Part shown: in pieces, positions 45,061 to 49,839 of the stretch
How positions within the stretch are numbered: the stretch's first letter is position 1
Layout of the letters: every line of letters begins with the position of its first letter
Origin: a virus
DNA: 64,000 bases
Strand: one strand, 5' to 3'
IMG/VR virus record: IMGVR_UViG_3300025769_000077
Location: 1 to 64,000 of that record
Made by a program: the position numbers and the translations under genes
Notes under the pieces: generated by a model
Told to the model about the DNA's origin: nothing
The model's database searches: none
Seen by the model: the letters and a program-made list of their open reading frames with translations, nothing else

Positions 45061-46038
45061 ATGTTTAAAGGTAGTGTAATCAAAACTGTAACAGAAGAGT
45101 TAATATTATCACATACGACTGATTATGATATATATAATTATTACTTACCGGATTATACTCCAGGTAAAGGTTGTACAAACAGTCCTCTGAGAAATGATGG
45201 TATTCCTTCATTTGGTGTATTTTACGCTGACCGTTACAGTATATGGATGCACAAAGATCTTTCTACTGGAGAAAAAGGAAACTGCTTCACTTTTGTAAGA
45301 GATTTATTCTCTTATGGTACGTATTATGAAGCATTATTAAGAATAGCTCAAGACTTTGGTATAGCTGAAACAAAGGTAAAGTTAAAACCAAAGGTTAAAC
45401 CTAAACCTTCTTATTCTTATGGGTCTATACAGATAAGTGTAGTAAACAAAGAATTTGAAGAATATGATTTAGAATATTGGGATCAATACAAGATATCGAA
45501 AGATGTACTTAATCTATATAAGGTTGAGTCAGTGAGATATCTTGTATTCTCATCCCATTTCTCAACATGGTCTAAACCAGTGGATAAATATGCTTATGCA
45601 TATCCTGAAACTAAAGATGGTAATATTTGCTATAAGATATACCAACCTTATAGTAAAGACAAATGGATTAATAATTATAAACCTGGAACACATTCCGGAT
45701 ATGAACAACTACCTTCAACAGGTGAACTCCTTATAATTACCAAATCTTTAAAGGATGTAATGAGTATATATGCTACTACTGGTATTCCAGCTATAGCTGT
45801 TCAAAGTGAAAGTGCTAGTATAAAACAAGAAGTATTCGAGGAATATAAATCTAGATTTGCTAACTTAAGACTACTGTTTGATAATGACAAAGCAGGTAGA
45901 AAACTATCTAAAAAGTTTAGTGATAAGTATGATATTCCTGAAATGATTATACCTGAACAGTTTAAAAAAGATTATTCAGACAACGTCAAAGAATACGGAT
46001 CTAAAATCAGTAAAAATATTTTAATTGATTTAATATGA
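45061..46038 (+). CDS. DnaG-like primase with Toprim domain
   Basis: A 325-residue protein starting right after the SSB stop. The N-terminal 110 residues resemble the CHC2-type zinc module (SPLRNDGIPSFGVFYADRY, then WMHKDLSTGEKGNCFTFVRDL) with a degenerate metal site. A linker of repeated KPK follows. The Toprim domain (residues 215-320) has LLIITKSLKDVMS in place of the usual E-G-x-x-D and LLFDNDKAGRKLSKK with the D-x-D pair. Makes RNA primers with the DnaB-like helicase. Confidence 0.78.
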   Translation: MFKGSVIKTVTEELILSHTTDYDIYNYYLPDYTPGKGCTNSPLRNDGIPSFGVFYADRYSIWMHKDLSTGEKGNCFTFVRDLFSYGTYYEALLRIAQDFGIAETKVKLKPKVKPKPSYSYGSIQISVVNKEFEEYDLEYWDQYKISKDVLNLYKVESVRYLVFSSHFSTWSKPVDKYAYAYPETKDGNICYKIYQPYSKDKWINNYKPGTHSGYEQLPSTGELLIITKSLKDVMSIYATTGIPAIAVQSESASIKQEVFEEYKSRFANLRLLFDNDKAGRKLSKKFSDKYDIPEMIIPEQFKKDYSDNVKEYGSKISKNILIDLI

Positions 46039-46325
46039 ACGTTGGAATAAGAAATGTAAGTTATTTTAACGGCTTATATGATAATAAAAGTGAAGAAATA
46101 ATACTTCCTACTAACTTGTCTACCAAGTTAGATCTAAGTGCTGTTAAAATAATAAGAATGATGGGTTGCGTATATATGATTCCAACTAAAGAAGGATATT
46201 CTGTAAGGAATCATAAGATATCAATGCCTAGACAAATATTTAAGTTGTATTTTGGAACAACTAAAAAAACCAAGCTAAAATTAATTTTTAAAAAGAATAA
46301 AATTCAAATAACATGTCAAAATTAG
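46035..46325 (+). CDS. small basic protein before the ubiquitin-like gene
   Basis: 96 residues, Lys/Ile-rich with a beta-rich core (VKIIRMMGCVYMIPTKEGYSV, in pieces) and a basic end. Overlaps the primase stop by 4 nt and the ubiquitin-like ATG by 13 nt, so it links the replication block to the conjugation operon. Role unknown. Confidence 0.45.
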   Translation: MNVGIRNVSYFNGLYDNKSEEIILPTNLSTKLDLSAVKIIRMMGCVYMIPTKEGYSVRNHKISMPRQIFKLYFGTTKKTKLKLIFKKNKIQITCQN

Positions 46326-46561
46326 TAACAATTTATTCATCAGTAGGAGAGTCTAAAAAAGAAGTTAGAACTGATGCTGAAAACTGGGGAGAACTTCAAG
46401 TAGACCTTAATGGAGCAGGTGTATCTATTGATGGAAAAAAAGTAATTCTTAAGCAAACAAAAGCAACTTTAGAAAGTTCTGAAGCTGTATTACCGACTAC
46501 AGATTTTGCTATTATGCTTATTCCAGGTAAAGTAAAATCTGGTAACGAAAAAAAGCACTAA
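46313..46561 (+). CDS. ubiquitin-like beta-grasp protein (short form)
   Basis: 82 residues. The layout follows ThiS/MoaD/ubiquitin-like proteins: strand 1 KLVTIYSSVG, strand 2 KKEVRTD, a helix from NWGELQVDLNGAG, strand VILKQTKATL, then the characteristic ending EAVLPTTDFAIMLIPGKVKSG, which matches the L-x-D-G-D-x-x-x-L-x-P-x-x-x-G pattern of the family. Ser76-Gly77 is where Gly-Gly normally lies, and only NEKKH follows, so trimming by the JAMM peptidase downstream would expose an SG or G end. E1-like and E2-like genes follow in the same operon. The last codons form a slippery heptamer. Confidence 0.72.
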   Translation: MSKLVTIYSSVGESKKEVRTDAENWGELQVDLNGAGVSIDGKKVILKQTKATLESSEAVLPTTDFAIMLIPGKVKSGNEKKH

Positions 46562-46637
46562 GTCCTTGTCGTACTAGAAAAGTCAATGATAATATTGCTA
46601 AGTTATTTAGTAGTATTCCTAGACAAGACGATAAGGA
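46549..46637 (+). promoter_or_regulatory. programmed -1 ribosomal frameshift signal
   Basis: A_AAA_AAG (46549-46555) is in the 0 frame of the ubiquitin-like gene, two codons before its stop. After a 7-nt spacer, TCCTTGTCGT (46563-46572) pairs with ACGATAAGGA (46628-46637): 10 bp with one G-U. Inside its loop AATATTGCTAA (46591-46601) pairs with TTAGTAGTATT (46607-46617), 11 bp with two G-U and a 5-nt loop. Heptamer, spacer and stem match the rules for -1 frameshift sites. Confidence 0.72.
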
Positions 46638-46695
46638 AGATAAAGATGCTCAAGCAGTTCTAAAAAGATTGAAGGAAGAATTCAATGTCGACTAG
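46553..46695 (+). CDS. -1 frame extension of the ubiquitin-like protein
   Basis: In the -1 frame the codons from GCA at 46555 run open to TAG at 46693-46695 and contain no ATG. A shifted ribosome would make a 127-residue product: the first 81 residues plus a 46-residue tail (ALSPCRTRKVNDNIAKLFSS, then a Lys/Asp/Glu helix LKRLKEEFNVD). The frame ends 11 nt after the next ATG. Without the frameshift this segment would be an unexplained 125-nt gap in an otherwise overlapping operon. Confidence 0.62.
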
Positions 46696-47701
46696 TAATC
46701 AAAGATATGAAGGGAGTTATACACTCCCTTCTTCTTATAACAAGGATAATTATGATAAACTAATAGATTTACTGAACTTATATTTTAAGGATAATTGGTG
46801 TTTTAATAATGATGGTGTTGAATTTACAGGTATTGAGTTAGTTATTAAGTTTGATAGATTGACTATAAGTAATTCTAGAAATAGATCTCATACTATTAAT
46901 GATTTATATGTATTTTTATATATAAATGAACAAGGAATTCTTAACACTGCTAGTATTAAAGGTGGTCGTGGTAAATTAAGTTCAAGTGAATATGCTAGTA
47001 ATTATAAACATTCTCATTTAAGTGGAAATGTTTTAAAAAAAACATGGTTTTGTACCGGAAGTGGTCACATTAATGAAGCTTTAGCTAACTGTTGTGATGA
47101 ATTTAATATAGATAATTTTGATATTCTATTTGCTAATTTATTATCATTTGTTGAATGGGAATCCTTAGAAGGAGTTCCTTATAAATATATGAGTAATATT
47201 AGATTAAATGACGGAGTATCTTATTTATGTATTGATCAAGATTTAACACGTAGAATTATAGAAAAATTAAAAAAAGATGACTTTGATTTAAGTATTAGAA
47301 CTAATCCTACTGTTGTTATAAATCAGAAGTTTATAGATGCTTGTGTTAAAAACGGATGTCCTTTAGGTTACGAAGCAGATAATGGTAATTGGTGTACTGA
47401 TATATCACAACAATCTAGTAATAACTCATTAAAAACAGATTTTTCATTTAAAAACAAAAAAGTTATTTGTGAAATAACTTCAGATATAAATGATAAAAAA
47501 GAAATTGAAAAAAAACCATATATTAAACAAATAGAAAATGTTGCAAGAACAATTGAAACAAGAATCAAGCTTGAAAGAATCAAAGATTCCTTCTACTCCA
47601 GCTCTGAGGTTAGTGAATTCTGGAAAGAAATTCAAATTAGTGATTTCACAAGAACTGAAGTTGACAATAGAGAAACTATGCAAAGAAATTTCGCATATTG
47701 A
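46685..47701 (+). CDS. E2-like protein of a phage ubiquitin-like system
   Basis: A 338-residue protein. Residues 20-170 have the landmarks of divergent prokaryotic E2/UBC-like domains: a central sheet (GIELVIKFDRLT, then LYVFLYINEQG), then KHSHLSG with His109 and His111, and FCTGSG with Cys123 as the candidate catalytic cysteine 12 residues on. A flanking helix LLSFVEWESLEG follows. The C-terminal 160 residues are a charged extension. In related systems (for example the PRTRC type) a similar E2-like gene lies between the ubiquitin-like gene and the JAB gene, as here. A terminator-like hairpin sits in the first codons (46709-46731). The assignment rests on motif spacing and context. Confidence 0.55.
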   Translation: MSTSNQRYEGSYTLPSSYNKDNYDKLIDLLNLYFKDNWCFNNDGVEFTGIELVIKFDRLTISNSRNRSHTINDLYVFLYINEQGILNTASIKGGRGKLSSSEYASNYKHSHLSGNVLKKTWFCTGSGHINEALANCCDEFNIDNFDILFANLLSFVEWESLEGVPYKYMSNIRLNDGVSYLCIDQDLTRRIIEKLKKDDFDLSIRTNPTVVINQKFIDACVKNGCPLGYEADNGNWCTDISQQSSNNSLKTDFSFKNKKVICEITSDINDKKEIEKKPYIKQIENVARTIETRIKLERIKDSFYSSSEVSEFWKEIQISDFTRTEVDNRETMQRNFAY

Positions 47702-48614
47702 GTGGTCAGGACCTATCTTTTACGAGATATTAGAAGGAAATATGAAAGATCCTTCTAAGTTGGTTATTAAAGCATTTGACTTTAGATTAATGGATATTGG
47801 TACTTCAGGATATACAGAGTATGAAACTGATGCTGATTTAGGTATGTTTATGTTTGATAATAATTACGTAGATAATATTAAGATGGGTCATATGCACTCT
47901 CATCATACTATGAAAGCTTACTTTTCTGGTACAGATAATGGAGAATTAATTGACAACGCACCTAACCATAACATCTACTTAAGTCTTATTGTAAATAATA
48001 AGATGGAAAACGTAGCAAGAATTGCTTATGTTGTTAAATCAAATATAGGTGGAACAGTAACAGTAAAAGATATAGATGGTTCTGATTTAGTTCAAGGATA
48101 TCAAGACGAAGATTACATTGAGTATTTAGATGCTGATATTGAATATGAGCAACCTACAATGGATTTTACAGATCTTGAAGCAAGAATTAAAGAATTACGT
48201 CCTAAACCTAAATCTTATGGTACTTTTATAACACCTGGAAAACATCGTCAAAGTGTATATGGTTTACAACAAACTTTAAAAGATACTCCTGGATTTGAAA
48301 TTGATAAGACTATAAAACTTAAACAATTTGTATCTAAGTTTCTTAAAGGAGTGAGTTTTAGTGGTACACTACAAGACGCAATGAGAGAATTAGCTCTAGC
48401 TTATCCTAGTTCTACTAGTTTTACTCCTTATGTGGAAAAACAACATAGAGAAGGATTTGGTAGAAGAGCTTATGAAACAGTATTTGGATTACCTTATAAA
48501 CAACAAGAGTATTACATAATTTTACTTGAAGCTATAATGATGATGGATGATTTAACTTATTGTCAATATCATTTTAACATGTTAATGTCTTGTTTTGAAT
48601 CATTTACAGACTAA
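47538..48614 (+). CDS. JAMM/MPN+ (JAB) metallopeptidase
   Basis: A 358-residue protein with a complete JAMM zinc site: Glu55 in HIEWSG, and His120-x-His122-x7-Ser130-x2-Asp133 in the segment MGHMHSHHTMKAYFSGTD. This is the deubiquitinase signature found in Rpn11 and in bacterial JAB proteins. Residues 200-358 form an additional helical domain (LQDAMRELALAYPSS, then EYYIILLEAIMMM). It probably trims the ubiquitin-like protein or removes it from targets. The start must be upstream of the JAB core, so the ATG at 47538 inside the E2-like gene is used, giving a 164-nt overlap. The stop shares bases with the E1-like ATG. Confidence 0.8.
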   Translation: MLQEQLKQESSLKESKIPSTPALRLVNSGKKFKLVISQELKLTIEKLCKEISHIEWSGPIFYEILEGNMKDPSKLVIKAFDFRLMDIGTSGYTEYETDADLGMFMFDNNYVDNIKMGHMHSHHTMKAYFSGTDNGELIDNAPNHNIYLSLIVNNKMENVARIAYVVKSNIGGTVTVKDIDGSDLVQGYQDEDYIEYLDADIEYEQPTMDFTDLEARIKELRPKPKSYGTFITPGKHRQSVYGLQQTLKDTPGFEIDKTIKLKQFVSKFLKGVSFSGTLQDAMRELALAYPSSTSFTPYVEKQHREGFGRRAYETVFGLPYKQQEYYIILLEAIMMMDDLTYCQYHFNMLMSCFESFTD

Positions 48615-49276
48615 TGAGTAGATTTGAAAGATTTAAAGAAGCAGCATGGTTCGGTATGAACGAATTACCTGTTGTTGTAGGTGGAGTAGGTGGAATCGGT
48701 TCTTGGGTAGCTTTATTGTTATCCAGAACCGGTTGTAACCTTATAATCTATGATATGGATATTGTAGAAGAAATAAATATGGCAGGACAATTATACAGTA
48801 CAGATAGTATAGATCAGTTAAAAATAGATGCTGTTACAGATATTGTAGATAAATTTAGTCCTGGCACTGAAATCGATTCTTTTGAAGAATACGATGAAGA
48901 AGGAATGGTAACTCCTATTATGTTTTCTTGTTTTGATAATATGAAAGCTAGAAAGCAAATGTTTGAAAACTGGAAGAAACAAGAAGATAGAGAGTTATTT
49001 ATAGACGGTAGACTTTTAGCTGAACATTATCAAGTGTTTGCTGTAAGAAAAAGTCAAGAAAAAGAATACGAAAAACACTTATTTTCTGATGATGAAGTAG
49101 AAGAAGCTCCTTGTTCGTATAAACAAACTTCACATTATGCTGCAGGAATTGCATCTAAAATGGTTGCTTGTTATACAAATTACTTAGCTTTAAAAGCAGA
49201 AGATGAAACTGCTGAAGTTCCTTTCTATCATGAGTTTATGGGTAAAATATTTTATTTAGAATGTTATTACGTATAA
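48614..49276 (+). CDS. ThiF/E1-like activating enzyme
   Basis: A 220-residue minimal adenylating enzyme. The nucleotide loop is VVGGVGGIGSW (residues 21-31), followed by YDMDIVEEINMAGQLY with Asp47, Asp49 and Asn55 where E1 proteins bind ATP and Mg. SCFDNMKAR (near 105-113) is the usual S-x-D-N-x-x-x-R motif. Cys167 in EEAPCSYKQTS is well placed as catalytic cysteine. It would adenylate the ubiquitin-like C-terminus and pass it to the E2-like protein. It lacks any ubiquitin-fold or second Rossmann domain, so it should work as a homodimer like ThiF/MoeB. One base overlap with the JAMM gene. Confidence 0.8.
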   Translation: MSRFERFKEAAWFGMNELPVVVGGVGGIGSWVALLLSRTGCNLIIYDMDIVEEINMAGQLYSTDSIDQLKIDAVTDIVDKFSPGTEIDSFEEYDEEGMVTPIMFSCFDNMKARKQMFENWKKQEDRELFIDGRLLAEHYQVFAVRKSQEKEYEKHLFSDDEVEEAPCSYKQTSHYAAGIASKMVACYTNYLALKAEDETAEVPFYHEFMGKIFYLECYYV

Positions 49277-49839
49277 ATAATAGTAACTATTCAAATATTG
49301 ATAGCAATACTTATTCTTTATGTAATTTTGCATTAAAACCTACAGATGATTATATTCCTTTACATTATCTAGTTAACATAGTGAATTTAAAGAGTAATCA
49401 TCACATAATTAACGTAGTTAAGCGTATTATTCCTTGTATATTTTCAATATCTGCAGTTGATTCTATGATTAACTTACATTATATGTATGCTCCTTTTAAT
49501 TATACAGTTAAAAATGTAAATTATAACGTTAATCCTGGTTTAATATTTGACAACAATGATAACATTATTGCATTAACTGTTGTAAAGAACATAGAAAACT
49601 TCTATAAAAAAACAGAATACACAATTCTTTTAAATGATGAAGTAGGTAAATCTATGATAAGCAGATTAATCAATAAAATGAAATCTAATATATTAACAGG
49701 AAAAGTAGTTATTGAGTATAAAACTCAAGAAGAATTGAATTTATTTAAAAAGTTACCAGAGAAAGTTAAGATAAACACATTAAAACAAAAACAAGAATAT
49801 GCTGAAAAGCTAAAATCATATGCATTCAGGAATAGTTGA
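49261..49839 (+). CDS. operon protein after E1, unknown
   Basis: A 192-residue protein overlapping the E1-like stop by 16 nt. The first 100 residues are Asn/Ile/Tyr-rich (NYSNIDSNTYSLCNFALKP); then VNPGLIFDNNDNIIALTVVKN and a helical C-terminus with KTQEELNLFKKLP. Very AT-biased codons. No adapter or ligase motif recognised. It may be a target-recognition factor of the conjugation system or simply a neighbour. Confidence 0.4.
   Translation: MLLRINNSNYSNIDSNTYSLCNFALKPTDDYIPLHYLVNIVNLKSNHHIINVVKRIIPCIFSISAVDSMINLHYMYAPFNYTVKNVNYNVNPGLIFDNNDNIIALTVVKNIENFYKKTEYTILLNDEVGKSMISRLINKMKSNILTGKVVIEYKTQEELNLFKKLPEKVKINTLKQKQEYAEKLKSYAFRNS

Follow-up and report, generated by a model that had tools for sequence, protein, structure and literature searches.

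A conserved phage operon with the gene set of a ubiquitin-like conjugation system in the replication block of crAss-like genomes

In bacteria, ubiquitin-like (Ubl) systems have been known chiefly for their action against phages or from operons on plasmids and integrative and conjugative elements. Cap2 of the cyclic-oligonucleotide-based antiphage signalling systems (CBASS) is a fusion of E2 and E1 and conjugates the CD-NTase itself. In Bil systems, BilA consists of two tandem Ubl domains and is made as a precursor that a JAMM peptidase trims to expose its glycine, BilD has two adenylation domains and a Cys domain, and BilB carries a CEHH motif in which His follows Cys (PMC11354881). In PRTRC, which we equate with row 6d of Iyer et al. 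2006, the E2-like protein has a conserved His C-terminal to its Cys (PMC1779556). Here we describe an operon in a 64-kb stretch of viral DNA (positions 1 to 64,000 of the 98,405-base IMG/VR record IMGVR_UViG_3300025769_000077, hereafter the window) that encodes a Ubl modifier, an E2-like protein, a JAMM peptidase and an E1-like enzyme. Sequence comparisons and structure predictions suggest that it is a working phage system for Ubl conjugation and deconjugation, made in the middle (replication) phase, and we give this reading a rough probability of 0.75.

Four adjacent open reading frames (ORFs) on the + strand have the positions, lengths and motifs that the original prediction assigned to them. 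The Ubl modifier ORF (46313..46561) encodes 82 residues ending in ...PGKVKSGNEKKH, in which VKSG occupies residues 74-77 and is followed by NEKKH and the stop codon. The E2-like protein (46685..47701, 338 aa) has HSH at residues 109-111, C123 and, past the last core helix, an invariant ESxxGxP. The JAMM/JAB metallopeptidase (47538..48614, 358 aa) carries E55, H120, H122, S130 and D133, and the E1/ThiF-like adenylating enzyme (48614..49276, 220 aa) carries GGVGGIGS, D49, K70 and C167. The genes had been described as overlapping, which is true of the E2 and JAMM genes (164 nt, out of frame) and not of the first two, which are separated by a gap of 123 nt. Of the general features of Ubl conjugation, the operon has a predicted beta-grasp modifier with a C-terminal glycine, an E1 adenylation domain with a Cys, and a JAMM motif.

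A scan with an E1 profile gave 56 viral loci and a scan with a JAMM profile gave 370, of which 80 were retained; conservation was counted over the 102 distinct loci that cover all four genes. A search of viral contigs with the single E1 sequence had returned one distant locus only, whereas the profile searches succeeded. All 102 loci keep the order Ubl-E2-JAMM-E1 on a single strand, and 97 of them also share the out-of-frame overlap of E2 with JAMM. Cys123 and His111 of the E2-like protein are both present in every locus, as is the [S/A]G glycine of the Ubl (SG in 98, AG in a few), and the E1 Cys167 is found in 98 of the 98 loci that are readable at this position. In all unsplit relatives the JAMM motif ExnHxHx7SxxD is intact. 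Identity among relatives is mostly 18-45%, and for E2, JAMM and Ubl it is often just 18-30% to the window. Catalytic residues that stay invariant at 18-30% identity point to strong purifying selection on catalysis, and their invariance across such divergent phages argues that the system works. The original prediction had listed GGVGGIGS, C167, the JAMM residues and the E2 HSH/C123; they are present in the window and invariant or nearly so among the relatives, and its reading of a working system is supported to the extent that this invariance suggests. Two other readings, chance motifs and a decayed pseudogene, were ruled out by the conservation of these residues. The same four genes, sought in related phages, were thus found in the same order, and the operon is conserved in a large group of crAss-like phages rather than being peculiar to one phage.

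PRTRC, compared through NCBIfam models and its description, has the same four single-domain parts as the phage operon (Ubl, E2-like, JAB and E1-like). Its gene order is probably the same as well. The matches of the PRTRC_A and PRTRC_ThiF profiles to the phage proteins are weak, far under the curated cut-offs (16.2 vs 101.8 bits for A and 30.7 vs 144.75 bits for ThiF), and the PRTRC_B and PRTRC_C models gave none. The His of row 6d follows the E2 Cys, whereas the conserved HSH of the phage family lies 11-30 residues N-terminal to the Cys, which stands in a C-x-G motif. Bil systems likewise hold Ubl, E2, JAMM and E1 in one operon. Unlike BilA, however, the phage modifier is a single beta-grasp domain followed by a helical tail; unlike BilD, the phage E1 is a single domain of 220 aa; and in place of CEHH the phage E2-like protein has C-x-G with the conserved His upstream. 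CBASS Cap2/Cap3 and Bub share an E1-type adenylation domain and a JAMM peptidase with the phage operon. In contrast to the fused E2-E1 Cap2 of type II CBASS, E1 and E2 are separate ORFs in all loci and the Ubl stands alone; no CD-NTase gene is named among the annotated neighbours, not all of which were searched by profile. The tail assembly proteins I/K of phage lambda also pair a phage Ubl that has a C-terminal glycine with an adjacent JAB peptidase (PMC1779556), but they lack E1 and E2 and belong to virion assembly, whereas the operon described here has the full set and lies in a replication block. By the defining features compared, its sequences place the operon in none of PRTRC, Bil or CBASS.

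The E1 has a firm match to ThiF (Pfam PF00899, E 4e-17), and the profile of its family hits UBA5 at 1e-14, Cap2 at 3e-8 and BubCD at 2e-5. Among NCBIfam models it fits ThiF/MoeB best, as would be the case if the operon were a sulfur-carrier pathway of the ThiS/MoaD/CysO type, with a Ubl thiocarboxylate that thiolates a nucleotide, tRNA or metabolite, a JAMM peptidase that only matures the carrier, and an E2-like protein that is a divergent acceptor or sulfurtransferase. Operons with JAMM, Ubl and E1 and without E2 are known from sulfur assimilation (Iyer et al. 2006, PMC1779556), and there are neighbours with roles in nucleotide metabolism (ribonucleotide reductase, RNR, and uracil-DNA glycosylase, UDG). 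However, the E2-like protein with its invariant Cys is always there (102/102), and such a partner is not expected of a plain sulfur-carrier pathway and so favours conjugation. A cysteine desulfurase, a rhodanese or a thiazole/molybdopterin gene is not named in the conserved neighbourhood. We consider the sulfur-carrier pathway improbable.

For the E2-like protein, PDB sequence profiles gave nothing and the Pfam E2 models gave no match. The fold predicted by AlphaFold2 with 41 sequences comprises a helix (20-34), four strands (38-41, 50-62, 68-80 and 92-99), a loop that holds HSH...C123, and two helices (128-138 and 142-157), with a predicted local distance difference test score (pLDDT) of 84-98 over most of residues 20-157. 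In this prediction the order of the elements is that of the UBC fold, at high local confidence. The E2 candidate was also considered as a second JAMM, as both have HSH, and this was ruled out by the predicted fold and the missing S..D motif. Loci L020 (4946-7055) and L090 have a pair of E2-like ORFs, overlapping each other, between Ubl and JAMM; HSH...C is missing from the second, which may represent a duplicate that is split or decayed.

The JAMM peptidase falls short of the Pfam threshold (Prok-JAB, E 0.001), yet it has the exact E...HxHx7SxxD motif; against PDB sequence profiles it gave nothing sound. In L048 (5537-5796) and L035 (6133-6345) group I introns lie in the JAMM gene exactly between the codons of H120 and S121, and in L099 (8054-8334) one lies near the glycine-rich loop of the E1. 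Homing introns typically insert in conserved active-site codons. The split E1 genes of L073 and L099 contain similar ORFs, which are probably of the homing type.

The Ubl of the window has no match to Pfam ubiquitin models, PDB sequence profiles gave nothing sound for it, and both it and the E2-like protein match uncharacterised PHROGs only. Its crAss001 orthologue, with which it aligns, was modelled with AlphaFold2 as a beta-grasp over residues 4-81 (pLDDT about 95 over 1-80), and Foldseek matched this model to ubiquitin and SUMO with probability 1.0 and E about 1e-3. The beta-grasp fold proposed for the 82-residue protein is therefore supported by way of the modelled orthologue. Past the beta-grasp, the model continues with a low-confidence KSG stretch (pLDDT 69), a three-helix domain (94-131), a disordered part and further helices. 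Between two well-folded parts, the KSG stretch is presumably flexible, and the three-helix domain may be SAP/HeH-like, judged by its helix pattern.

In most relatives the precursor is composed of the beta-grasp, (K/R)SG and a helical tail of roughly 65-215 residues. In eleven distinct loci including the window, the Ubl ORF instead ends 1-5 residues past SG (KVKSGI, KVKSGK, KVKSGF, KIKSGKF and the like), and in several of these short-Ubl loci the tail is a separate downstream ORF. Every Ubl ORF among the distinct loci extends beyond the glycine, so trimming would be needed throughout. For the window this corrects the original prediction, which took SG as the C-terminus of the modifier, as five encoded residues (NEKKH) come after it. 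The fused tails, together with the short and split forms that end just past SG, imply maturation by the JAMM enzyme at SG, and this enzyme is the obvious candidate protease. Such trimming of Ubl precursors is known for eukaryotic Ubls and for BilA (PMC11354881). The tail itself evolves fast, as its sequences indicate, and in cr106_1 (L002, 3002-3517) the KSG codons are immediately followed by an HNH endonuclease gene (NUMOD4/NUMOD1), which parts the Ubl domain from the tail. Nearly all lineages keep a tail, whether fused, split off or in the -1 frame, and one could suppose that precursor processing is the main purpose, with JAMM and Ubl serving to release the tail protein and conjugation secondary. 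We regard this as very improbable, since processing needs neither E1 nor E2, yet both are invariant, and since L020 and L072 have no recognisable tail beside the Ubl. In one relative (L050, 4310-5245; IMG/VR 2974789010) the precursor tail contains a ribosomal protein L7/L12 C-terminal domain (PF00542, E 3e-10), an odd echo of the eukaryotic fusions of ubiquitin to ribosomal proteins.

In the gap between Ubl and E2 of the window, the -1 frame is open, starting from a slippery site close to the stop codon of the Ubl. The final codons of the Ubl, GAA AAA AAG CAC TAA, include an in-phase candidate heptamer A_AAA_AAG (46549..46555, + strand), 6 nt before the end of the ORF. A candidate stimulatory stem-loop (46563..46637, + strand) begins 7 nt past it, with a 10-bp lower stem and -21.5 kcal/mol. 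The -1 frame tail ORF (46555..46695, + strand) encodes 46 aa (ALSPCRTRK...LKEEFNVD), overlaps the E2 start by 11 nt and has no ATG or GTG, only a late TTG; a slip into it would yield a Ubl-tail protein of 127 aa. In-phase A_AAA_AAG occurs only twice in the 71 ORFs of the window, and of the 97 in-phase X_XXY_YYZ heptamers in these ORFs, only that of the Ubl combines a long -1 frame, a 7-nt spacer and a strong stem. The stem-loop has a z of -3.8 and was equalled in stability by 1/200 shuffles; 66 of 1583 stretches of 85 nt in the window (about 4%) are equally stable. Similarity of the -1 tail to the tails of relatives is weak, although its best score was above those of all 100 shuffles. The elements of a programmed -1 frameshift are thus present in sequence (in-phase heptamer, spacer of 5-9 nt, stem-loop and open -1 frame), and we lean slightly towards frameshifting as the way in which the tail is made in the window phage. 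There is also a considerable chance, somewhat short of even, that a single base was deleted from an A8 run, in reality or by assembly error, and that the true gene is fused as it mostly is in relatives: a change from A8 to A7 by itself creates the in-phase A_AAA_AAG. However, an indel would not give rise to a strong stem-loop exactly 7 nt past the heptamer, and the separate short Ubl of other lineages indicates that a short form is viable.

The window phage is crAss-like (Crassvirales) by its capsid and terminase sequences. Its major capsid protein (phrog_11589, 8e-110) is 41% identical to that of Cellulophaga phi14:2 and 38% to that of crAss001, and its large terminase subunit matches phrog_6681 (2e-111). 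Capsid, terminase, DNA polymerase, RNR and helicases are all phage-like, and the phage is a gut-type phage. The operon lies in a replication block, with the gene for a Toprim DNA primase (45061..46038, + strand) upstream and exonuclease and UDG genes downstream. The original prediction, which located a complete conjugation and deconjugation gene set in a replication region and not in a host defence island, is upheld in this respect. The primase is a conserved neighbour that is also found in crAss001, DAC15, cr85_1 and others. In crAss001 the middle-gene class, taken as a whole, has largely replication and recombination functions (PMC8375218). Directly downstream, a fifth conserved gene (49261..49839, + strand, 192 aa) overlaps the end of the E1 gene and evolves fast. 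A leave-one-out profile of its family finds the window copy at E 1e-9, and 87 of 105 post-E1 ORFs fall into this one cluster. A 96-aa ORF (46035-46325) between primase and Ubl overlaps the Ubl start and is without relatives among the fetched loci.

The cassette occurs in the same neighbourhood in crAss001 (gp79-gp76), DAC15 (gp48-51), cr128_1, cr111_1, cr85_1, Dulem virus 41 and bajarodcaudo virus 1, and in Flavobacterium phage Fpv3 with UDG on the other side. All parts are present in the cultured phages crAss001, Fpv3 and DAC15. Six crAss-like genomes without the E1, including phi14:2, also lack JAMM and E2; phi14:2 belongs to the viral family of crAss001. The operon is therefore all-or-none in the crAss-like phages tested and clade-restricted within Crassvirales. 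No match to the E1 was found in plasmids, and a scan of GTDB genomes returned one contig of a metagenome-assembled genome, so that no host reservoir of close relatives is seen at that sensitivity. A description of the operon was not found in the open-access literature; subscription papers and preprints were outside that search. In the 228-kb Xanthomonas jumbo phage PhiXhv-12 (L149, 4938-5621) there is a relative of the E1 but no partner E2 or JAMM, and locus L006 (7958-10232) has a different arrangement, JAMM and E1 followed by an apparent Ubl-type ORF.

Presence in only part of Crassvirales, together with the fast evolution of the tail and the fifth gene, would also fit a role in counter-defence, in which the same chemistry tags or jams a host immune protein or swamps host Bil or CBASS conjugation; hosts are known to turn Ubl systems against phages (PMC10097602; review PMC11354881). 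The operon is, however, always in the replication block between primase and recombination genes and not in an accessory or early region, and its catalytic core is under strong purifying selection. We regard counter-defence as possible, though on balance unlikely.

As a working conjugation system, the operon would act as follows. The Ubl would be made as a precursor, which JAMM would trim or cleave after ...(K/R)SG. The ThiF-type E1 would adenylate the freed glycine and probably take the Ubl onto Cys167; the UBC-like E2 would accept it on Cys123, with His111 upstream assisting, and hand it on to a target lysine or another nucleophile of the target. The analysis shows the gene set and its order, the invariant residues, the predicted folds and the fused, split and -1-frame tails, and from these we infer catalysis, the thioester relay, the cleavage site, frameshifting and, for the window phage, timing. 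The product of the fifth gene is a possible adaptor, and JAMM may additionally remove the Ubl from the target, which we can only suppose to be a phage replication protein or a host protein. In the window phage, -1 frameshifting would determine how much free Ubl (82 aa) is made relative to Ubl-tail (127 aa). Several points weigh against this scheme. The Ubl ends in SG and not GG, and an E3 was not identified. For the UBC fold expected around Cys123, the support is the predicted topology, and the top Foldseek matches of the E2-like model, which include RWD, UEV and E2 domains, are non-significant (E 0.2-2). The frameshift rests on one sequence, in which a base deletion in the A-run or an assembly error would look alike, and the homology of the -1 tail is weak.

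The whole cascade appears as a conserved operon among the replication genes of a virus group to which abundant, cultured phages of the gut belong. In databases it is hidden, its genes in relatives being labelled piecemeal as hypothetical, metalloprotease or thiamine biosynthesis proteins. The laboratory pairs crAss001/B. intestinalis and DAC15/B. thetaiotaomicron make the system testable. If the reading is true, viruses would be running a ubiquitin-like pathway of their own, in which fused, split and possibly frameshifted forms of the modifier precursor occur naturally. We tentatively suggest, at well below even odds, that ubiquitin-type modification, run by this group of crAss-like phages and directed at their replication machinery or at host proteins, is a core part of their infection; the modifier would be released from its precursor by JAMM and, in the window phage, dosed by frameshifting.

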